From: Lachnospiraceae bacterium
Lineage (GTDB): Bacteria > Bacillota > Clostridia > Lachnospirales > Lachnospiraceae
Assembly: GCA_021770755.1 (NCBI GenBank)
Contig: JAETQI010000025.1
Coordinates: forward strand, 1 to 60,757
Reading direction: 5' to 3'
DNA length: 60,757 nucleotides
Each line of letters starts with the position of its first letter. Positions within the stretch are counted from its first letter, which is position 1. A program made the position numbers and the translations under genes. Under the pieces are notes generated by a model. The model worked only from the letters and a program-made list of their open reading frames with translations, was not told the origin of the DNA and ran no database searches. Shown piece by piece: positions 1-13,734 of this stretch.

Positions 1-3000
1 CTTTGGTTTCTCGCCTCACGGTACATGATGCAGAGGATCATCCCCGACTACGCGGAGAAAACTTTGGTTTCTCGCCTCACGGTACATGATGCAGAGGATC
101 ATCCCCGACTACGCGGGGAAAACTGATTATCTTCCCAGTAACACGCCCGCGCCTTGGGATCATCCCCGCCTACGCAGGGAAAACATTATATGCTATAAAG
201 GCAGATATACACCATTAGGATCATCCCCGCCTACGCGGGGAAAACCGATGGTGAGGCGATGTATGACGCGAGGCGGAAGGATCATCCCCGCCTACGCGGG
301 GAAAACTCAATCTTGATCGGTTCCAACCCCGCAGTCGGAGGATCATCCCCGCCTACGCGGGGAAAACCTATTAAAATCTTTATTAATCTTAAACTATCTA
401 GGATCATCCCCGCCTACGCGGGGAAAACTCCTGGGGGAGAAGCCCACCAATATGGCGCGTAGGATCATCCCCGCCTACGCGGGGAAAACTTTCCAAGGCA
501 CCATTTCAGGATCGGATTGTTAGGATCATCCCCGCCTACGCGGGGAAAACAGTACGACGGATCTGACCAATGCGACGGTACTGGGATCATCCCCGCCTAC
601 GCGGGGAAAACCTGTGGCTCTTATTTCATAGCTCATTTACAGCAGGATCATCCCCGCCTACGCGGGGAAAACGCTTTTTTAATGTCTCCAATTTTTTCAA
701 TTATAGGATTATCCCCGCCTACGCGGGGAAAACTGGACGCAGTGGGCGCTTATTACGATTACTGCAGGATCATCCCCGCCTACGCGGGGAAAACAGGAGG
801 TGATAGTTCCCGAGCATACTGTAGATAGGATCATCCCCGCCTACGCGGGGAAAACAGGAGGTGATAGTTCCCGAGCATACTGTAGATAGGATCATCCCCG
901 CCTACGCGGGGAAAACTTTCAGAATATGCTCATTCTGCATCCTCTGTAAGGATCATCCCCGCCTACGCGGGGAAAACTGCTTGGCGGTACTGTCTGAATC
1001 ACATGAAAATGGATCATCCCCGCCTACGCGGGGAAAACGTATGCAGATCCTAACAAGGCACGGGCATGCTAGGATCATCCCCGCCTACGCGGGGAAAACA
1101 AACAGTCCTGATAAACGTATCTGCAACCATAAGGATCATCCCCGCCTACGCGGGGAAAACCGCCTTTGATAAAAGGGAGGCATCCATGATACAGGATCAT
1201 CCCCGCCTACGCGGGGAAAACACTACCAAGGGGGCTGTTTCAGCGATGTATCAAGGATCATCCCCGCCTACGCGGGGAAAACGTATAGGATAAACTTTTT
1301 GAACTACCCCAGTCAGGATCATCCCCGCCTACGCGGGGAAAACTGCGTCATTGTATTCATCATACGTGCTAACACAGGATCATCCCCGCCTACGCGGGGA
1401 AAACAACCATTCATCGATCCCGACCCGTTCAACAATAGGATCATCCCCGCCTACGCGGGGAAAACTTTTTAATAAAAATGACATTAGATCCACCAATAGG
1501 ATCATCCCCGCCTACGCGGGGAAAACGTCAATACTCTGCGCTTAATCCCCAGCCTAGTGGAATCATCCCCGCCTACGCGGGGAAAACAATGATATTATTT
1601 CGCCGGCTCCATTATACTCAGGATCATCCCCGCCTACGCGGGGAAAACTTGTAATCATTTGGTATCATCACACCCCTGATAGGATCATCCCCGCCTACGC
1701 GGGGAAAACACTTCGTGGTACGGAAACTTCTGGTTCCTGCCAGGATCATCCCCGCCTACGCGGGGAAAACTCCGTTGGATCTGATCAGGGAGTATATAGT
1801 TTAGGATCATCCCCGCCTACGCGGGGAAAACAATGATATCTTTGGGGAAAGCCCGGCAAAAGCAGGATCATCCCCGCCTACGCGGGGAAAACTGGTTATT
1901 TATCGAATATTAGGTGATGGCATGAGGATCATCCCCGCCTACGCGGGGAAAACGATTGCGCTTGTGCTGCTGCATTTGCTGCTGCGGGATCATCCCCGCC
2001 TACGCGGGGAAAACGATAGCGGAAAATTTCAAATAGATGATATGGTAGGATCATCCCCGCCTACGCGGGGAAAACTTGATGTATCTGCAGTTAGGATGCT
2101 TTAGTGTAGGATCATCCCCGCCTACGCGGGGAAAACCAGTCAAAAAACAAAATCCTCCGACAAAAAACAGGATCATCCCCGCCTACGCGGGGAAAACTTG
2201 GTATTGTTGATTACTCCAGATAAGCCGGTAGGATCATCCCCGCCTACGCGGGGAAAACTACATCCATAAGCTCTGTGCTACGTTTCTCTAAGGATCATCC
2301 CCGCCTACGCGGGGAAAACATATATATTTTTGATAAATAAAACAAATGGACAGGATCATCCCCGCCTACGCGGGGAAAACGAAAGGATAGAATTTAGATG
2401 AAAGCAACAGGAAGGATCATCCCCGCCTACGCGGGGAAAACGCACTCATATGCTTTTGGTGCGAATGTTTTACAGGATCATCCCCGCCTACGCGGGGAAA
2501 ACGACATGTCACGCAGGGACACGCCCAGATCACCAGGATCATCCCCGCCTACGCGGGGAAAACAGCACAGGAGTCCGGGTGTCGGAACTGGTAGCAGGAT
2601 CATCCCCGCCTACGCGGGGAAAACCAAAAGCAACGCAAGACGGAAACGGCAGAAATAGGATCATCCCCGCCTACGCGGGGAAAACCGACAATATACCCGC
2701 CCGCTTATCCGAATCGTAGGATCATCCCCGCCTACGCGGGGAAAACTCTGGTGGTGGTTATGATTCCATCGCCTGTGCGGGATCATCCCCGCCTACGCGG
2801 GGAAAACGGAAGAAACTAAGCAGGGACAAGGAAGATATCAGGATCATCCCCGCCTACGCGGGGAAAACGAACAAGTAAAACGCCGATTAGATCCACCAAT
2901 AGGATCATCCCCGCCTACGCGGGGAAAACTATTTTATGCCCGTACCGTCACAGTGACGGTTGGGATCATCCCCGCCTACGCGGGGAAAACAACGGTACAG

Positions 3001-3112
3001 AGGATACTGCAGATGACGTGATAGGATCATCCCCGCCTACGCGGGGAAAACTATTTCGGTGTCACAAGCTTCGGGACTGGCAGGGGATCATCCCCGCCTA
3101 CGCGGGGAAAAC
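1..3112 (-). CRISPR. Type I-E CRISPR array, at least 51 repeats
   Basis: Fifty-one 28-base repeats start at 35, 96, 157, 219, 279 and then every 61 bases to 3085-3112. Spacers are mostly 33 bases; one is 34 (185-218) and one is 32 (247-278). The repeat holds an inverted repeat with arms TCCCCGC and GCGGGGA. By analogy with other I-E repeats, the crRNA strand is minus, where the unit begins GTTTTCCCC and ends GATGATCC, so Cas6e would leave an AUGAUCC-type 5' handle. The leader end therefore faces cas2, and the newest spacers are near 3112. Decay sits at the far end: repeats at 35, 96 and 157 carry substitutions, and single variants occur at 706 and 1560. Position 1 looks like the last base of another repeat, so the array continues beyond the window. 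The spacers at 2-34 and 63-95 are identical, as are those at 795-827 and 856-888. Confidence 0.98.
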
Positions 3113-3156
3113 ACTAAATAAATCCCTTAAAAAAGCACCTGCTTGATCGTGCCACC

Positions 3157-3172
<16 letters not shown>
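3113..3172 (-). promoter_or_regulatory. CRISPR leader region with 11-bp inverted repeat
   Basis: Only 44 bases separate the cas2 stop (3157) from the first repeat, so the leader must be very short or include the 3' end of cas2. The segment is bounded by a perfect 11-bp inverted repeat, ACTAAATAAAT at 3113-3123 and ATTTATTTAGT at 3162-3172. One arm touches the first repeat and the other covers the cas2 stop codon. On the minus strand a short GCAC/GTGC pair followed by six T residues lies between the arms and could act as a weak terminator. No convincing promoter was found. The leader role is inferred from position. Confidence 0.55.
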
Positions 3173-5605
<2,433 letters not shown>

Positions 5606-5610
5606 CTATA

Positions 5611-6306
5611 TCACCCCATTTCCATCATTGGATCATGCTCTGTTGAAACAGGTATATTTCCTCCTGTCACTATTTTAGGTTTCAGTTCCCTCACATACCG
5701 ATATCGATACTCGCGTTTGAACGGTGAAAAAGATACTGGCACATCCTTTTTCACTGCATCATTACAGGAACCATCAACTACAATTCTCAATGGAATCTCG
5801 TTCTGAAAACGGAACAGTGCACTTCTCTGCCATTTGGGTACGAGCCATTCCTCCTCGCGCAGCGCAGATTCCAGATCTGTCTCCCGTATCCCCAGAACAA
5901 GCGGCTGCGTCGGCGGACAAGACCTCCTGCCAAGAAAAAGCGGATATCCCGGATGCTTCAGCGCTTTCTCGAGTTCTTCCAGAAATGCCTTATCCCCACA
6001 TGCCAGACCCGCCAGAAAAACCGCATCGCTCAAATAAACTTTATTCGCCAGATTGGCATTCAGCTTTTCACCCATATATGTAATCTGAAAATCCTCCAGT
6101 CTCGCGCCTGGCCGGTCTACCCTGATTCCAAATTCCAGCTTCAAAAGATCATCCACCGCTTCGTCCCTTTTTCTGCCCAGCGCGGCTGCCAACATACCGA
6201 TCACGCCGCTCTTCGTCGGAATATAGTCCGTATCCCGGCGATCATACATCGATTCCGAGCCCCATGACTGCAGCGGTGCACTGAACCTAAGCAACAATGT
6301 ATACAA
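5611..6306 (-). CDS. cas5e: Cas5e, Cascade subunit holding the crRNA 5' handle
   Basis: Cas5e is the RAMP protein that caps the 5' end of crRNA in Cascade. The conserved N-terminus LLLRFSAPLQSWG is immediately followed by SKSGVIGMLAAALG-like sequence, which is typical of the family. The open frame continues upstream to 6372, but that extension overlaps cas7e and is not family-like. The best start is TTG at 6306, ten bases after an AAGGGA ribosome site that overlaps the cas7e stop. This gives 231 residues, close to the 224 of E. coli CasD. It is tightly packed between cas7e and cas6e. Confidence 0.93.
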   Translation of the reverse strand: MYTLLLRFSAPLQSWGSESMYDRRDTDYIPTKSGVIGMLAAALGRKRDEAVDDLLKLEFGIRVDRPGARLEDFQITYMGEKLNANLANKVYLSDAVFLAGLACGDKAFLEELEKALKHPGYPLFLGRRSCPPTQPLVLGIRETDLESALREEEWLVPKWQRSALFRFQNEIPLRIVVDGSCNDAVKKDVPVSFSPFKREYRYRYVRELKPKIVTGGNIPVSTEHDPMMEMG

Positions 6307-6310
6307 TATG

Positions 6311-7408
6311 TCACTTCCCTTCTGCACAATACTGATCAATGCCGACGGCAATTTCTTCCAGCAGTTCCGCAAACGTTACCTTATCCGCGAAACCTTCCTC
6401 TGCATCTCCCACGACCCACGCCTTTAGCGGAGCGGCCGTATAATCCTTATATATTTTCTGAGCCTCTGATACAAGCGCTTTTCCCGATTTCCCGACATAA
6501 CCGCCGCCCGCCTCGGCACACACGGGTTTTTCAAACGCGCTGGCAAAATTGATCGGCTGATCCTCCCTGAAAGTGACATATACGATATTCGGAAGCGTCC
6601 TATTGGCAAAGGTATTCTGCTTTCCCGTAGGCATGGAACGGATAAATGCGTCCGCAAATCCTTTCACAGCCAGTTTCAGCTCATCCGCCTTAAGATTACG
6701 TGACAGCTCGCCGACATTGACGGTTGCATATCGATAGAGTGTCGATGCATTGAACTCCACAGTTCCGATATGACCTGCCCCTGTGTCTTCTGTACAGTCG
6801 TCCACCGCGGTAAAATAGTCATACTCATTTGAGATCGTATGCGTAGAAATACTGTGCGCTACCTGCGCCGCCGCATCGTAATTCAGGCTGGGATTGTTCG
6901 CGGCCATACGTCCAAACAGGAGTATGTCCACACTTGGATTGTCCCTGAGTGCACTCTCTATGCGTTTTTTATATATTTTCTCCTTCTCTTTCTTCTCTGT
7001 CGCATCGCTGCGATATTCAACTGCAAGCCTCGCCAGTGTCTCAACCTGCAGGCCGCTCACAAAAAACAGTACATCTTTTTTCTCTGCATCTGCCTTTATA
7101 CCAGCCAGACCCAAAATCTCGGATGTCGCCTTCTCCGCTGCATCAGTTCCAAAATCAGGATTCTCCGCACATATCTTTTCCATGACTAAAGAATTAATTT
7201 TTCTTGTCCGATAGCCCATCATATCTGATGTAAAGAGTTCTTTAAACCGAACCCGCATCGCTCTCTTCCACGCCTGCGAAGAGACTCTCGCCCTGAGTGT
7301 TCCCCCATATACCGCAGTCTTCGGGCTTCCTGTATCATCCCTGTTAATGCAACTTGGCGGTACTGTTTGGATCACGTGAAAATCGACATACAAATTTTTG
7401 TTCATCAT
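6311..7408 (-). CDS. cas7e: Cas7e, Cascade backbone subunit
   Basis: Cas7e forms the six-subunit helical backbone that holds the crRNA spacer. The start is fixed by an AAAGGAGGAATT ribosome site and two consecutive ATG codons (7408 and 7405); the first overlaps the cse2 stop. The protein has about 365 residues. The family hallmark near the N-terminus, VPPSCINRDDTGSPK, is present, as is an SLNYDAAAQVAHSISTH segment typical of CasC. Residues 9-20 are encoded by 7351-7383, which closely match the array spacer at 978-1010. The differences inside codons are silent, so that spacer appears to come from another cas7e gene. Confidence 0.96.
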   Translation of the reverse strand: MMNKNLYVDFHVIQTVPPSCINRDDTGSPKTAVYGGTLRARVSSQAWKRAMRVRFKELFTSDMMGYRTRKINSLVMEKICAENPDFGTDAAEKATSEILGLAGIKADAEKKDVLFFVSGLQVETLARLAVEYRSDATEKKEKEKIYKKRIESALRDNPSVDILLFGRMAANNPSLNYDAAAQVAHSISTHTISNEYDYFTAVDDCTEDTGAGHIGTVEFNASTLYRYATVNVGELSRNLKADELKLAVKGFADAFIRSMPTGKQNTFANRTLPNIVYVTFREDQPINFASAFEKPVCAEAGGGYVGKSGKALVSEAQKIYKDYTAAPLKAWVVGDAEEGFADKVTFAELLEEIAVGIDQYCAEGK

Positions 7409-8004
7409 AATTCCTCCTTTGTTTCTTTCCTGTACATTTCCCGATAAAAATCCTGCCCCCATCTCAAATTTACATGGTTTCTTGCCTCAGGAAATTGAAA
7501 TTCATATAAATCTGCAGACAATAATACATAATTGACCGCAATTCCTTTCGAACCCAACAACTGTATCATATTTTTTAAATGATGAGATGCCTCTTTCATG
7601 TCCACAGATGTCGCAAACGCCTGCAATTTTTGAAGCATTCTTCCCTCTGCATTGGTGTCCTCAGAAGCTTTTGCCATTTTTGCCAAAGCAGCCCCCATGC
7701 TGACATTTTCATCTGTATGCATTGATCTGTTCTTTGCGTCATACCCCTGCTGATGCATCGCATATAGCGTGAGTGCCATGTAGACTGACCACTCAGCTCT
7801 CGTCGGTACACCGCTTTGACTCATAAGGTTTTCCGGCAAATCCATCAGGATTGTCCCAAACAACTGCGGGAGCGCGCCTGGTTCGTGGCCAACACCCCGT
7901 CTTAAATCCGCAAACATGGCTTTCCCTGCACCGATGTCCGCTTCGGCCTGCAGGATACCTATTTTTTTGCCCACAAAAGATTTTATATCTGACTTTGTGC
8001 TCAT
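7405..8004 (-). CDS. cse2: Cse2 (CasB, Cas11-type small subunit)
   Basis: This 199-residue, mainly helical protein is the small subunit found in two copies along the belly of Cascade, where it stabilises the R-loop. The RRGVGHEPGALPQLFG segment near residues 35-50 is characteristic of CasB. Length is within the usual 160-200 range. Its ATG overlaps the cas8e stop (ATGA) and its own stop overlaps the cas7e ATG pair, so translation of the three Cascade genes is coupled. Confidence 0.93.
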   Translation of the reverse strand: MSTKSDIKSFVGKKIGILQAEADIGAGKAMFADLRRGVGHEPGALPQLFGTILMDLPENLMSQSGVPTRAEWSVYMALTLYAMHQQGYDAKNRSMHTDENVSMGAALAKMAKASEDTNAEGRMLQKLQAFATSVDMKEASHHLKNMIQLLGSKGIAVNYVLLSADLYEFQFPEARNHVNLRWGQDFYREMYRKETKEEL

Positions 8005-9638
8005 TGGCTCTCCTTTCCATGTAATTGTGCCGCCTTCGGATAAATTTTTCGCAATTCACCCAGATACATATTTAGCGCTTGTGGTATTGTCAAAATTCTG
8101 CCCTCATCCTCCTTATGCACATAGATATTCATATTTCTCATATGGATAAACTCTTCAACAACACCTTTAGCATAATAATAAGACTTTTGTTCCCACTGTT
8201 CAATCTTTTTCTCGCGTTCTCCCTGCAAAGGTTCAATCCCAGATAACCATTCCCGAAACGCTATATTGATATGAAAATAGTAATTTTGCACCAGCATCGC
8301 CTTTATATAATTTGTTCCACCGCCAAAAAGCTTACATACACTCGATGAAAAATGACCGATTGCCTTAGATGCAATATTCTGGCATTTCTCCACCTCGTCA
8401 GTTATCACTGAAATCCACTCCTCACCTAAGTCCATGAGCAGATCAGATGACATCGTTAAAGTATTGTGAATGCTGTCCCCATATGTGTACTTCATCTGGT
8501 CGCCATATACTATCCCTATCATTTTAAAAGTGATCAGACGCTCTGACACAAACGTCTTCGTCTTTTTTAATGTTCTTATCCATTCAACAATTCCCGGAAT
8601 ATGGCCTGCGCTTCGTTCACTCATCAAAGAGTGAAACTCTTCCCATACCTGCACTGACGGATTGTGTATTCTGGGGATATGAAATACCCTTTCGGACTTC
8701 TTATCCACTTTCTGTTCTTTCCATAGTGTCATAGGTTCATTAAAATCATCTTCCGTTGAATAAAAATCACCGCCGATTGCCCGATATCCTACTACCCAGC
8801 CGTCCTTCCTGTCAAGTTGGATCCGTCTCGACTGAATCGTGTACAGTTCAGGAAGATTATCCGGCGGTGCGATTTCCCGCCCCTGCTCCAAATGAATCTC
8901 CTGCTCCCAGACTGGTCTTGGCAGCCCCCATATATCCGCATTATCTTTCAGCGGGCACAGATTCAGCATAATGATCCGAAACAAATCATCTCCATTCACC
9001 ATGACCATTCCCAACTGTCCAAGTCTGCCAACTCCCACAGGAAGATTTGGTCCCGGTAATTTTTTATCTGTTTTAACATTCACACCATATGCATTTAAAT
9101 GAATGATCCATCTGGCTGCCTCTGCATAGCTGATTCGCTCCAGCCTGTCGCCCTCTGTCATGCTAAAATGATGTCTTGTCGCTTTGTTATTACTTTCCTT
9201 GAGATTTCCAACCAGACATTCAACTCCATATTCTGTTCCATATGACAGATCATTTACCTGCCAGAACGGCGTCTCTGGATGGAACAGCCAGAAACGCTCA
9301 CTGTACCGCTGAAAGTATTTCCGTACTGCCGTTTCCGGAAACGCCCCTCTCTCCCAATATTTTTTCCACCGCTCCAGCACTGTCTCGTCGTCCGAATCAT
9401 TTTCCTCGGATATCTCGTCCTCATTTCCATTTTCATCATATCTGTAGAAAATGGTCAGTGCCGCCGCAAGCAGTACCCTCAACAGCGCGGCGTCCTGCGT
9501 GGGCGTCTCGCCTGCAAGCCCCACATACTCCTGTGCGTGGAGCATCGCGTCCATCAGGGACACTTCTTTCTGCTCCAGAGATCGTGTACTGACTTTGATC
9601 CACGGCTCTTTCAAAAGGTCAAACTCCTTCTCCTGCAT
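8001..9638 (-). CDS. cas8e: Cas8e (Cse1/CasA), Cascade large subunit
   Basis: Cas8e recognises the PAM, opens target DNA and recruits Cas3. The protein begins FDLLKEPWIKV a few residues after ATG 9638, the standard Cse1 N-terminus. The open frame extends upstream to 9701 but overlaps cas3 and lacks family features. A strong AGGAGGAGAAGG ribosome site directly precedes ATG 9638. Length is about 545 residues, somewhat longer than the 502 of E. coli CasA; an acidic low-complexity stretch (about residues 80-95) accounts for part of this. Segments such as ETPFWQVNDL and an extended middle region fit the family. It overlaps the end of cas3 by 20 bases. Confidence 0.94.
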   Translation of the reverse strand: MQEKEFDLLKEPWIKVSTRSLEQKEVSLMDAMLHAQEYVGLAGETPTQDAALLRVLLAAALTIFYRYDENGNEDEISEENDSDDETVLERWKKYWERGAFPETAVRKYFQRYSERFWLFHPETPFWQVNDLSYGTEYGVECLVGNLKESNNKATRHHFSMTEGDRLERISYAEAARWIIHLNAYGVNVKTDKKLPGPNLPVGVGRLGQLGMVMVNGDDLFRIIMLNLCPLKDNADIWGLPRPVWEQEIHLEQGREIAPPDNLPELYTIQSRRIQLDRKDGWVVGYRAIGGDFYSTEDDFNEPMTLWKEQKVDKKSERVFHIPRIHNPSVQVWEEFHSLMSERSAGHIPGIVEWIRTLKKTKTFVSERLITFKMIGIVYGDQMKYTYGDSIHNTLTMSSDLLMDLGEEWISVITDEVEKCQNIASKAIGHFSSSVCKLFGGGTNYIKAMLVQNYYFHINIAFREWLSGIEPLQGEREKKIEQWEQKSYYYAKGVVEEFIHMRNMNIYVHKEDEGRILTIPQALNMYLGELRKIYPKAAQLHGKESQ

Positions 9639-12396
9639 CCTTCTCCTCCTTCCGCTCGTATTCCAATCCCTTATCGTAACTGTATGACAACCGGTATCCA
9701 TTCAGTTCCGCCCGGTTCTTCTCATCCAGCAGCAGCACCAATTCACCACGTATCCACGATGACCGCTGCCACTGCTCCAATTCCCTGGCGTTGAGGTTTT
9801 CCAGCTCCCTGATCGTACCATCAATCATGTATCGTGTGCTGAAAATATGCGGCAGTTTCAGGCGCTGTCTGGAAATCCTGTGAGCCTGCTCAAAGTCAGG
9901 GACATCCGCCGCCAGGATTCCCGGCGAGGTCAATGGGTCCTCATCCACAAACAAAATTCTCTCATCCTGGCTCTTTTTCATCAGCAGCACTTCAATGGAT
10001 GATTCGCTGTCCCGCACACAAGCCTCTGACAATTTTTCATCAGACTTCTCCGGATTGACTAACAGATCGTCAATTCCCTTTTTAGGCTTCGGCTCCATCA
10101 TCAGATATTTGTCCGCACGCCGCTCTTTCTGCTGCTTCTTCTCCTCATACTTGGCAACGGCATTCCTGTATTGTTCGCCTTCCAGCCCCAGATCATCCTC
10201 CTCATCATAGACCCGCTGGACCAGGTCTGGAATTTCTTTGGGTATCTCTACTGTATCAGCGAGCACTTTGTCTGTCCTCATCAGATGATACGCTCCATAT
10301 ATAGTCTCCGTACCAGAATCATATAGAGCCGCCTCTTCCTGCAGTATGATACATTCCGGCATCTGTAATCGTCTGGGTCTGACCCGCTTATGCCTGTGTA
10401 GCCTTCCAATCCGCTGCAACAGCAAGTCGGCAGGGCAAAGCTGTGTCACCATGATATCCGCGTCGTAATCCAGGGACTGTTCCAACACTTGCGTGCCGAT
10501 CAGAATCAGTCGTTTTCTGTCGCCCTCCCCAGATGTTTTTCCCATCTTTTCAAGCACCAATTGCTCCTTTGCCATCCGATCCGGCATGGTAAACTGTGCA
10601 TGGTATAAAATAACATGGTATCCTTCCATCTGCCTGCTGCACTCCGCATAAAGTTCCTGGGCTTTTTTGACCGTATTTGCTATAATGCAGGCACACCCGC
10701 CTTCCTCCAGACGATCTCCCAGCAAATCGAACATTTCCTGTGTGGAGCAGATTCTTCTTATCCGGACGCATTTTTCCGCCACCTGACATGGAACGGCTTC
10801 CTGTCCGATCGATTCCCCGTCTGTCCATGTGATGAGCGGATAAGCCTTACTCTTCTGCCACCCTTCCTTAGACTGTGTGATCTCTGCCTTGCGCTTATTT
10901 AAACGATACTTTGAATAAGCTTTCACATAGCATTCGACAAGTTCCCTCCGTCGCTCAGATGGCAAAGTCGCCGACAACAGTATGACTGGCACCCCGTACG
11001 CTGCCATCCATTGAAGCGAACGTTTCAGATATTCGTACATATAGAGATCATACGCGTGGCACTCATCGATCACGACTACTTTTCCTGCCAGTCCGATATG
11101 CCTTAGCATAAAATGCCGCTTCCGCAAGGACGCCATAAGAAACTGGTCAACTGTACCGATCACAAAATTGGACAACAACGCCTTTTTATTCCCCTGAAAC
11201 CACGGATGGACTTCCAGCGCATCCTCACTGTCCTCTCCATTTGCTATGCTGGCTCTGCTCTCCATTAACAGACGGTTATATTGCTCATGAAATTCCGCGG
11301 AACCATGCGCCAGACAGATTGCATTTCTCATTCCCTCCGATACATGGCCGCTCCACGCATACAGCCTGTCAAACAGGCCGTTGCTGGTTGCCTGGGTAGG
11401 AAGGCCGAAGAAAATGCCGCCCTCCTGTTTTCTGCAAGCCAACACTTCCGCCGCCGATAGCGCCGCCTCGGTCTTCCCGATTCCCATCTGAGCCTCGAGC
11501 ACAAAAAGCCCCGGATTCTCACAGGCATTGACGATGTGAAACAGCGCTTCCTGAATCTCATTGGGTGGAAATCCAAAGCGGTCTTTAAATATATTCTGAT
11601 CCATGTAATTGACTTCCGAGCGCCAGCTATCCGGAAATTTCAGCCTGCGCCATCCGTCGCGAACTCTCTTGGGATACAGCCCTTCATCCCCGTACTCATC
11701 AATTGATACCAACGGAAAATAGGTGGAATTGCTTGCGATCCAGTCTGCTGCGATGAGAAGCCCTGATAACAGCACCTGCGCTCCGAGCGTGACCTCCGGC
11801 AACTCGTGAACAGACTGGATTCCTGCTATTTCAAGCGCCCTGCCGACAATCTCGTGCCACGAATCTTTCCATATCTTTTTCACAGTATCATCGCATTCTG
11901 CGCCAAAGAAATTAACCGGATAAACCTTTATCAGATCCGCCACACCCATGACAACAATACTGCTATCTGGTTTCCCGTGATGTGCCCCGACGATCATTGC
12001 TATCTTTTCATCCAGCTCAAACTCATTGGTGTCACTCTGGAGAATCCACTGCCCCGCATAGGCATGCGGCGTCTTTCCTGGTTCCCGGTATTCCTGATTG
12101 ACCACATAGCCACTTGCTGTTACGTCCTCATATTTTTCCGGGCAGGATTTTGTAATGATATGTTGAAAATAAGATGTTGCCTTGCCAATATCATGCACTG
12201 CAGCAAGAAAAGCCGCGATCACCATAAACTGGTCATAGTCCATTCCGGATGCGTTGATCACAGCTTCCGGAATCCATGATGCGACCAGCTTCCTCATAAC
12301 TCCGGCCGTGTCTTCCAGGTGCATCCACAGCGGAAGCCACATCTGCCCTGTATCCGGGCTCGATTTTGCCATTAATTGGCGATACTGCTCTGTCAT
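9619..12396 (-). CDS. cas3: Cas3 nuclease-helicase
   Basis: Cas3 is recruited by Cascade to unwind and degrade target DNA. With the start at 12396 it has 925 residues. The HD nuclease comes first: His26, His68-Asp69 in VHDIGK, His111, His139-His140 and Asp218 in AADW. The SF2 helicase follows: Walker A QMGIGKT at 303-309, DECH at 444-447, SAT at 475-477 and a QRIGRLHRH motif VI around residue 655. The frame is open to 12462, but that ATG lies inside the preceding lipoprotein gene. ATG 12396 has a GAAAGGGCTG ribosome site. Only 49 bases separate it from the lipoprotein stop and no terminator is visible there, so transcription may enter from upstream. All helicase and HD residues appear intact. 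Confidence 0.96.
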   Translation of the reverse strand: MTEQYRQLMAKSSPDTGQMWLPLWMHLEDTAGVMRKLVASWIPEAVINASGMDYDQFMVIAAFLAAVHDIGKATSYFQHIITKSCPEKYEDVTASGYVVNQEYREPGKTPHAYAGQWILQSDTNEFELDEKIAMIVGAHHGKPDSSIVVMGVADLIKVYPVNFFGAECDDTVKKIWKDSWHEIVGRALEIAGIQSVHELPEVTLGAQVLLSGLLIAADWIASNSTYFPLVSIDEYGDEGLYPKRVRDGWRRLKFPDSWRSEVNYMDQNIFKDRFGFPPNEIQEALFHIVNACENPGLFVLEAQMGIGKTEAALSAAEVLACRKQEGGIFFGLPTQATSNGLFDRLYAWSGHVSEGMRNAICLAHGSAEFHEQYNRLLMESRASIANGEDSEDALEVHPWFQGNKKALLSNFVIGTVDQFLMASLRKRHFMLRHIGLAGKVVVIDECHAYDLYMYEYLKRSLQWMAAYGVPVILLSATLPSERRRELVECYVKAYSKYRLNKRKAEITQSKEGWQKSKAYPLITWTDGESIGQEAVPCQVAEKCVRIRRICSTQEMFDLLGDRLEEGGCACIIANTVKKAQELYAECSRQMEGYHVILYHAQFTMPDRMAKEQLVLEKMGKTSGEGDRKRLILIGTQVLEQSLDYDADIMVTQLCPADLLLQRIGRLHRHKRVRPRRLQMPECIILQEEAALYDSGTETIYGAYHLMRTDKVLADTVEIPKEIPDLVQRVYDEEDDLGLEGEQYRNAVAKYEEKKQQKERRADKYLMMEPKPKKGIDDLLVNPEKSDEKLSEACVRDSESSIEVLLMKKSQDERILFVDEDPLTSPGILAADVPDFEQAHRISRQRLKLPHIFSTRYMIDGTIRELENLNARELEQWQRSSWIRGELVLLLDEKNRAELNGYRLSYSYDKGLEYERKEEKDAGEGV

Positions 12397-12445
12397 TTTA
12401 TCAGCCCTTTCTAAAATTATCATTCCAGGTCGCAGAATACTAATT

Positions 12446-13627
12446 TCATTTAATACTCCCATGATCCGTCACTTTGACGCCCACCTTTGGCATTGACGAA
12501 ATATCGGCAGAGACAGCAAGTTCACCGCTGTACATCGCTCTCACAAGGGCGCGGTAATCGTCCTCCGTAAAGGTGTCGCACCAAAGCGTGCTCCGGATCG
12601 GCAACTGTACGTAATTCTCCTCCGGTTCTTCCGAGACGATTCCTAAGTTTTCGAGCTTTCCTGCGTAATCACTCCATCTTCCGTCCCGTATGCCTGTGAG
12701 CACATCCCTGACAGTCTCGGTGAGTCCCTTCATCGCCGATGTGACCGTCATACCTTGTCCGTATCGCCCGTCAATGACAGCCTGCTGGTCGGAGTCGACA
12801 CCGATCACCTTTCCACCATGCTTTGCCGCCGCTTCCGCCGCCGATGTATAGATCTCACCGCCACATGCAAAGACAACCTCCACGCCCTTATCGCCATACC
12901 ATGTATCAATAACACCTGTAATTTCATCATCTCCGTAAAACTGGCCGCCATATACGTACTCTACCTCGACCGCATCCGTGACACCAAGCTCCGACGCTGC
13001 CGCATCGATCCCCTGCACATAACCGTATCCAAACCGTTGGACCGCCGGAGCGGATATACCCCCAAGAAATCCAAGGTGCCTGTAGCCAGATCTCACGGCC
13101 GCATACCCCGCCATGTATCCCGCAAGCTCCTCCTGGTATGTACAGCAGTATACATTCTTCTCCCTGTAATAATCCGTCACGTTGTAATCCGCCGGGTTTC
13201 CTGTATAATCCTCCCCCACACCTTTCTCACAGATGTCGCCCGCACTGACAGCAAGCGCCACAAATTTCACATCGGGATACTGTTCTGGCTGCGAGACGAC
13301 CGCCTCCGCAAACCGATACCCCGGCATAACGATCACATTGGCGCCTTCGGATACCGCTTTATCCACGCTCGCATCCCGCGCCTCATCGGAATCACTGTCA
13401 GGCTTGTAATACACAAACGGCACGTCGTTGATCTCTGACCAGTTCCTACATGCCTCGTATGTCGTCTGGTTAAATCCCTGGTCTGTGATATCGCCTGAAT
13501 CTGTGATCATCGCGATACTCATGTCTGTACCGTTCATGTCCACTTCCATGTCCGCATTTGTACCGCACGCCATTAGTGCGATTATCATAACAGCAGCCGG
13601 CACCAACGCCAGTCCTTTTCTCCTCAT
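12446..13627 (-). CDS. BMP/PnrA-family lipoprotein (nucleoside-binding ABC component)
   Basis: This 393-residue exported lipoprotein has a type II signal peptide (MRRKG, hydrophobic core, lipobox ALMAC) and a periplasmic-binding fold of the BMP/PnrA family. The family signatures are clear: an SIAMITDSGDITDQGFNQ block early on and a GGEIYTSAAEAAAKHGGKVIGVDSDQQ block near residue 265. PnrA-type proteins bind purine nucleosides for an ABC importer; no permease or ATPase genes are in the window. The start at 13627 is chosen for its GGAGG ribosome site; the open frame begins ten codons earlier. Its place directly after purA fits a purine-salvage role, but the ligand is not proven by sequence. Confidence 0.88.
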   Translation of the reverse strand: MRRKGLALVPAAVMIIALMACGTNADMEVDMNGTDMSIAMITDSGDITDQGFNQTTYEACRNWSEINDVPFVYYKPDSDSDEARDASVDKAVSEGANVIVMPGYRFAEAVVSQPEQYPDVKFVALAVSAGDICEKGVGEDYTGNPADYNVTDYYREKNVYCCTYQEELAGYMAGYAAVRSGYRHLGFLGGISAPAVQRFGYGYVQGIDAAASELGVTDAVEVEYVYGGQFYGDDEITGVIDTWYGDKGVEVVFACGGEIYTSAAEAAAKHGGKVIGVDSDQQAVIDGRYGQGMTVTSAMKGLTETVRDVLTGIRDGRWSDYAGKLENLGIVSEEPEENYVQLPIRSTLWCDTFTEDDYRALVRAMYSGELAVSADISSMPKVGVKVTDHGSIK

Positions 13628-13734
13628 CAATTTATCCTCCGTTAACATACGCAGCACGGAGCTGTGTATGATCGAGCAGTGCGCCGAGCGTGCGCCGCCT
13701 TAGCGGCATATTTCCTCTGGGTGCCCGTGCGCAT

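Follow-up and report, generated by a model that had tools for sequence, protein, structure and literature searches.

The window analysed here is a stretch of 60,757 bp from a Lachnospiraceae bacterium (contig JAETQI010000025.1 of assembly GCA_021770755.1), and it opens with a type I-E CRISPR array followed by its cas genes (Table 1). All eight type I-E genes were found in one cluster, at 3157-12462 and in the order cas3, cse1, cse2, cas7e, cas5e, cas6e, cas1e, cas2e, when the translations were compared with NCBIfam models; seven scored above the cut-off of models named for type I-E, and cas3 scored above that of the general Cas3 models. The true start of cas7e is probably the methionine of either MMNKN or MNKN. 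The array beside cas2 has 28-nt repeats that read GTTTTCCCCGCGTAGGCGGGGATGATCC in the minus-strand sense, and all 50 of its 50 spacings are 61 nt. Repeats of 28 nt and spacers of 33 nt are also found in the type I-E system of Streptococcus thermophilus.

Table 1. Features of the type I-E locus in the window
Feature	Position	Strand	Remarks
Type I-E CRISPR array	1..3112	(-)	51 repeats and 51 spacers in the window
Spacer 35 (counted from the leader), 33 nt, anti-cas7e	978..1010	(-)	crRNA sense ATTTTCATGTGATTCAGACAGTACCGCCAAGCA; between two 28-nt repeats
Presumed leader, start	3113..3156	(-)	separates the first repeat from the end of cas2
cas2e fused to DnaQ-like 3'-5' exonuclease	3157..4032	(-)	TIGR01873, residues 1-85; exonuclease models, residues ~113-290
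cas1e	4029..4934	(-)	TIGR03638
cas6e	4976..5605	(-)	TIGR01907
cas5e	5611..6372	(-)	TIGR01868
cas7e, gene resembled by spacer 35; longest frame	6311..7462	(-)	TIGR01869, E 2e-86
Match site of spacer 35 in own cas7e	7351..7383	(-)	28/33; upstream flank TCG, that is CG/A and not AA/T (slash before the first protospacer base)
cse2 (casB)	7405..8004	(-)	TIGR02548
cse1 (casA)	8001..9701	(-)	TIGR02547
cas3, HD and helicase domains	9619..12462	(-)	TIGR01587, TIGR01596

In the minus-strand sense the spacers begin, at the PAM-derived position, with T (43 of 51), C (7) or A (1), while the opposite end of the spacers is without a comparable base bias. The repeats also become more degenerate toward base 1 of the window, and the array carries on in another contig of the same genome (C20) with five further distinct spacers and still more degenerate repeats. 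The T/C bias, the sense of the repeat and the degeneration of the repeats away from cas2 together place the presumed leader on the cas2 side, and the array reads on the minus strand, which is a correction to the preliminary description. The array also contains two duplicated units: spacers 37 and 38 (795-888) are identical, as are spacers 50 and 51 (1-95), a copy of which is present on contig C20. In addition, spacers 4 (2869-2901) and 27 (1466-1498) have their first 16 bases in common (TATTGGTGGATCTAAT) and then differ, as though two acquisitions had used one PAM site in elements whose sequences diverge beyond it.

Within the genus, Cas7e was detected in 1 of the 38 genomes (1 of the 18 with completeness of 90% or more and contamination of 5% or less); within the family, 15 of 397 have it. 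A Bmp match, by comparison, was found in 35 of the 38 genus genomes, this one included, and six of the relatives with such a match were fetched. In all six, a distance of 1.3 to 6.6 kb separates the genes for a Bmp lipoprotein and a MATE transporter, and cas1 and cas3 gave no match. Here the Bmp and MATE genes flank the I-E locus, on two contigs that share the end of the array and that we take to be joined there. The rarity of Cas7e and the arrangement in the relatives point to the I-E locus being, probably, an insertion that arrived by horizontal transfer, and such an arrival would make contact with other I-E loci plausible. In three of the six relatives (L076, L079, and L080) the Bmp gene is followed by what look, by eye, like the genes of an ABC transporter operon, and in this genome (window 12446-13657) the I-E locus occupies the place of that operon and Bmp seems orphaned. 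A long minus-strand cluster at about 29000-60700, whose translation starts were read by eye, resembles a contractile injection or phage-tail-like system.

The preliminary description had reported that one spacer, number 35, matches cas7e of its own locus without gaps at 28 of 33 bases, and our realignment bears this out. In the crRNA orientation the mismatches fall at positions 8, 14, 17, 32, and 33. As had been described, four of the five are silent changes at third codon positions (His, Ile, Gln, and Ser), and the fifth is the first base of a Cys codon, with the excess of third-position mismatches being modest by itself (hypergeometric P = 0.033). Read in frame, the spacer encodes the cas7e motif FHVIQTVPPS and then a codon starting with A.

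This match is not a product of chance, which the preliminary description had named as a way in which its reading could fail. Outside the array, no other spacer among the 51 matches the window at more than 23, the 51 reversed spacers reach at most 22, and 300 shuffles of spacer 35 reach at most 23; for a single spacer, the expected number of 28/33 matches in the window is about 7e-7. Against the background of 23, spacer 35 thus has the above-chance cas-gene match of an anti-cas spacer, both to its own cas7e (28/33) and to a foreign one described below (L005, 30/33). That the resemblance is accidental and the true source an unrelated gene is, on these numbers, extremely improbable, and the match lies in the coding frame with the motif kept, while the match rises to 29 and 30 of 33 in other cas7e genes. 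What can be said for an accident is that the collections searched yielded no exact protospacer, the widest scan being aimed at cas7e and bacterial sources other than cas7e being partly covered.

We also compared cas genes with a pool of 577 distinct spacers, which come from the array in the window and its continuation as well as from 16 other loci (18 array stretches). At a threshold of 25/32, at which close relatives of the cas genes are visible at the DNA level, and with spacers containing N dropped and sites preceded by a repeat end filtered out, spacer 35 is the only one of the 577 to match a cas gene (at least 25/32). The other matches at this level, two between L049 and L050 (27/32 and 25/32) and one within L053 (25/32), all lie within array spans; several pairs at 24/32, some perhaps in cas regions, were treated as background.

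For possible sources of spacer 35, 84,980 species genomes were scanned with a degenerate pattern, a cas7e-like motif with transitions allowed at third positions, which would catch an identical source but not a source other than cas7e. The scan returned three loci, titled Lachnospiraceae, Clostridiales Family XIII, and Clostridiales, and all three are cas7e genes within I-E operons. Spacer 35 matches L005 at 30/33, L004 at 29/33, and L003 at 28/33, compared to 28/33 for its own cas7e, and over 19 distinct cas7e genes the match ranges from 17 to 30 of 33. The own copy is therefore not the best match, as it would be for a true self-targeting spacer, since L005 and L004 exceed it. The corresponding 33-mer of the own cas7e gives 27 to 28 of 33 against L004, L003, L015, and L005, genes that are about 50 to 71% identical in protein, so a value of 28/33 indicates no special tie to the own gene; in the table of pairwise cas7e comparisons the L017 row took a wrong motif, which spoils the value for L017 and some entries of the table, and its correct flank is AG/A. 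Spacer 35 is no closer to its own cas7e than to several other cas7e genes. The earlier proposal that the source was another, diverged cas7e is supported by two genes that match better and one that matches equally, and by sequence the most likely source is some diverged cas7e other than the present own copy.

The spacer could also be an old acquisition from the cas7e that this locus carried ancestrally, a gene that later drifted or was exchanged by recombination. The own cas7e ranks in the top four matches, a gene that drifts for a long time would be expected to gather silent changes, and array and cas genes may travel together. We nevertheless consider this origin unlikely, given that the own gene and the spacer differ as much as do cas7e genes about 50 to 71% identical in protein, and that the final A of the spacer suits a gene of the Ser-Asn type such as L004, not the Ser-Cys type of the own gene. 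In addition, neighbouring spacers, seven distinct ones, still match elements of the same genome at 33/33, by which measure the array seems young compared to such drift.

The check put forward in the preliminary description, a search for a perfect protospacer, gave no exact source in the family genomes, the pattern scan or IMG/VR. With up to 3 mismatches allowed, spacer 35 found only itself in 397 genomes of the family and only G399 in 296 genomes of the family of G399. In IMG/VR there were 0 matches to the 30-base core of the spacer and 0 to degenerate patterns for FHVIQTVPP and HVxQTVPP, and a query with a single Cas7e protein, which reaches close relatives only, found none. The array had no match among phage records; among plasmids it gave five records with pieces of about 70 to 79% identity, most likely repeats of other arrays, and in all 234 of the 234 plasmid records with a Cas7e relative that relative is less than 60% identical. 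A phage or plasmid carrier, as had been envisaged, was accordingly not found with a closely similar cas7e in IMG/VR or the 234 plasmid records.

Two kinds of candidate were set aside in the course of these searches. The best 'phage' record, MT835722.1, has a whole I-E locus beside genes that look bacterial by eye and was rejected as evidence for a viral carrier; this record (L002), which GenBank names 'Bacteriophage sp.', holds a full type I-E locus with an array and may be a bacterial contig. Solo cas7e genes acting as decoys were also rejected, as none stands alone among the 19 loci: tblastn with the own proteins placed cas5e and cas6e next to cas7e in 19/19, cse2 in 17/19, and cse1 in 15/19, with some loci stopping at contig edges.

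Other spacers show that the array is partly aimed at mobile DNA: five are perfect to one conjugative element (C68), one to a prophage tail gene (C113), and one to an integrase-bearing element (C9). The conjugative element (G000:C68; L030, L037-L039) is perfectly matched by I-E spacers S2, S3, S17, S28, and S30, and it is matched as well by two type I-C spacers (36/36 and 34/34), with two near-matches (34/36 and 33/34). The two CRISPR systems with which it coexists both seem complete, which suggests that there is an anti-CRISPR, that interference is inactive or that a foreign contig was co-binned. The locus on G000:C54 (L075) is type I-C by appearance, with its Cas7 recognized by PF05107, its neighbours judged by eye, and an array of 46 spacers (L075:3252-6265). 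None of these 46 spacers comes within 9 mismatches of the I-E locus, and the pooled I-E spacers reach at best 23/32 in the I-C locus, which gives no anti-cas match between the genome's two systems. The integrase-bearing contig (G000:C9) has a type I-C cas7 gene at L032:3914-4750 (csd2; TIGR02589, E 1.6e-74), with no other cas gene recognized among the neighbours scanned. An integrase of the DNA-invertase type is encoded about 7 kb away, the product of the cas7 gene is 46% identical to the resident I-C Cas7, and spacer S18 is perfect to the same C9 region. A mobile Cas7 of this kind might serve as a decoy subunit.

To define the flank that the array normally uses, we took the 12 other distinct spacers whose protospacers could be located, at 28/33 or better, in this genome or in the genus (S2, S3, S16, S17, S18, S22, S28, S30, S34, S37, S43, and S50). 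Ten of the 12 have AA upstream and T or C as the first protospacer base. The type I-E system of S. thermophilus, with its AAN PAM (PMC10281945, excerpt), has an AA-type PAM as well, whereas here the first spacer base, the third base of the PAM, is T or C in 50 of the 51 spacers. The two exceptions both match at 33/33: S28 has the flank GA/T, and S3 has the flank TT/C, which in the opposite orientation is AA/T, so that S3 looks like an inverted capture.

At the site of spacer 35, in contrast, none of the 19 cas7e genes has an AA flank (0/19 versus 10/12 for the other spacers). A G precedes the site in every one of them and derives from a GAN codon (Asp in 17, Glu in 2), and the flank reads xG/A against the usual AA/T or AA/C of the array. 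The preliminary description had predicted an AAT/AAC-like PAM, and what we found was an NGA-type flank in 19/19, so the cas7e match comes without a usable PAM in these genes. When the site is shifted one base inward, genes with Asp give GA/T or GA/C, the same as S28, and in the reverse orientation genes of the Asn type give AT/T or GT/T. We could confirm that spacer 35 is the sole one of the 51 with an A at the PAM-derived position, and an A is found there in 8 of the 577 pooled spacers, spacer 35 included. Slips and flips of the spacer do occur in type I-E adaptation. The initial A, together with the lack of an AA flank in any cas7e examined, suggests that spacer 35 was captured slipped or inverted, and S28 (GA/T) and S3 (AA/T only in reverse) are precedents in this array for such non-standard captures. 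There are two points on the other side: no exact protospacer was found, and a source with Asn at that codon would give AA/T one base further in; and since 2 of the 12 other spacers are also without AA in the orientation encoded, spacers of this kind are not exceptional in the array.

Mismatches had been proposed to protect the own cas7e, and this stands in part. The mismatch at protospacer position 7, which lies inside the seed as defined in E. coli (PMC5904413, excerpt), contributes, but the missing PAM (CG/A) comes first, and judging from the flank the own gene would be spared by the missing PAM more than by the mismatches. The perfect matches to the own genome bear on this as well, in that 5 of the 7 have AA/T. 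The system may therefore not interfere at all, and a tolerated match says little about PAM use.

In E. coli, arrays without the cognate type I-F cas genes contain anti-cas spacers that were proposed to exclude such loci (Touchon and Rocha 2010; PMC2886076, excerpt), and interference by such arrays was shown with plasmids carrying cas genes (Almendros et al. 2016, as reviewed in PMC8616872, excerpt). With this precedent, spacer 35 might guard the cell against incoming type I-E loci as the orphan arrays are reported to do against type I-F; the I-E locus looks horizontally acquired in the genus, and an own cas7e with no PAM and a seed mismatch would allow such a guard to be tolerated. We regard working immunity of this kind as unlikely, however, and the preliminary description's view of the spacer as immune memory against a rival I-E system was not supported: none of the 19 cas7e genes has the AA flank, no mobile carrier of a closely similar cas7e was found, an A at position 1 is rare, and a single cas-gene match among the pooled spacers gives no sign of enrichment. 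From its flank and first base, the working immunity of spacer 35 is doubtful, and the spacer probably works poorly.

The likeness to the E. coli orphan I-F arrays is that there too the best matches are cas genes, with the same idea of blocking the entry of a locus of the same subtype. The E. coli arrays, as far as the excerpt of PMC2886076 describes them, are short and lie in genomes without matching cas genes, each of which, where examined, had one or more of these spacers. Here, in contrast, the spacer is one of about 56 in a full array, the neighbouring operon is intact and of the same subtype, the own homologue is present and no usable PAM was seen. Spacer 35 also shares with self-targeting spacers, which are tolerated when the PAM is missing or the target is mutated (PMC6990116, excerpt), that it resembles a gene of its host with a flank that is not a PAM, but other cas7e genes match it better, which looks like cross-reactivity rather than self-acquisition. 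Anti-cas spacers as such are already known, and what is unusual is one beside an intact operon of the target's own subtype. In searches of open-licence literature we found no description of a lone anti-cas spacer in a complete locus of the same subtype without a usable PAM.

Partial complementarity to the own operon also raises the question of regulation, in which Cascade, guided by the crRNA, would bind at the own cas7e and lower cas expression while leaving the DNA uncut. CreR provides a model for this, as autorepression by crRNA-like RNAs with a partial match to the own cas operon has been described (PMC12737573, excerpt). However, CreR binds the promoter region of the cas operon (PMC12737573, excerpt), while the match of spacer 35 lies in the coding region of cas7e, the fourth gene, and spacer 35 is an ordinary spacer between ordinary repeats whose target lacks the usual PAM. 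The flank CG/A is unusual, seed position 7 is mismatched, and in vivo binding by E. coli Cascade mostly needs AAG and the seed, with other flanks bound more weakly and with a longer seed match (PMC5904413, excerpt). Two foreign cas7e genes also fit the spacer better than does the own gene. A CreR-like function is not supported by this comparison, and we consider regulation by spacer 35 very improbable.

Given the match, its excess over chance, the class of gene it comes from, the usual PAM of the array and the absence of that PAM from 19 cas7e genes, we favour, with a probability of about 0.6, the explanation that spacer 35 is an off-register or inverted capture from a foreign, diverged cas7e and not from the own copy, and that it causes little or no interference. 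DNA of a different, diverged type I-E locus would have entered the cell, or a previous owner of the locus, and the resident type I-E system would have taken the spacer from the cas7e of that DNA, the present own cas7e not having been the template. The start with A, and not T or C, would reflect capture in the wrong register or in inverted orientation. As encoded, the spacer 35 crRNA would bind cas7e DNA weakly and interfere little or not at all with rivals or self, although residual priming may persist.

These findings indicate that the foreign DNA from which CRISPR arrays draw spacers includes CRISPR loci themselves, in this case within a single subtype and in an array with an intact cas operon next to it. 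The analysis of the PAM adds that a spacer can show a striking match and yet probably have little effect. It is quite doubtful that the complete resident I-E system holds spacer 35 against the cas7e of competing loci while silent differences and an unsuitable flank hide its own cas7e; if this were true, the arrays of rivals would press cas genes to change silently at conserved motifs. If a working version with a matching PAM is found, the exclusion of incoming rivals by resident CRISPR systems would become testable.
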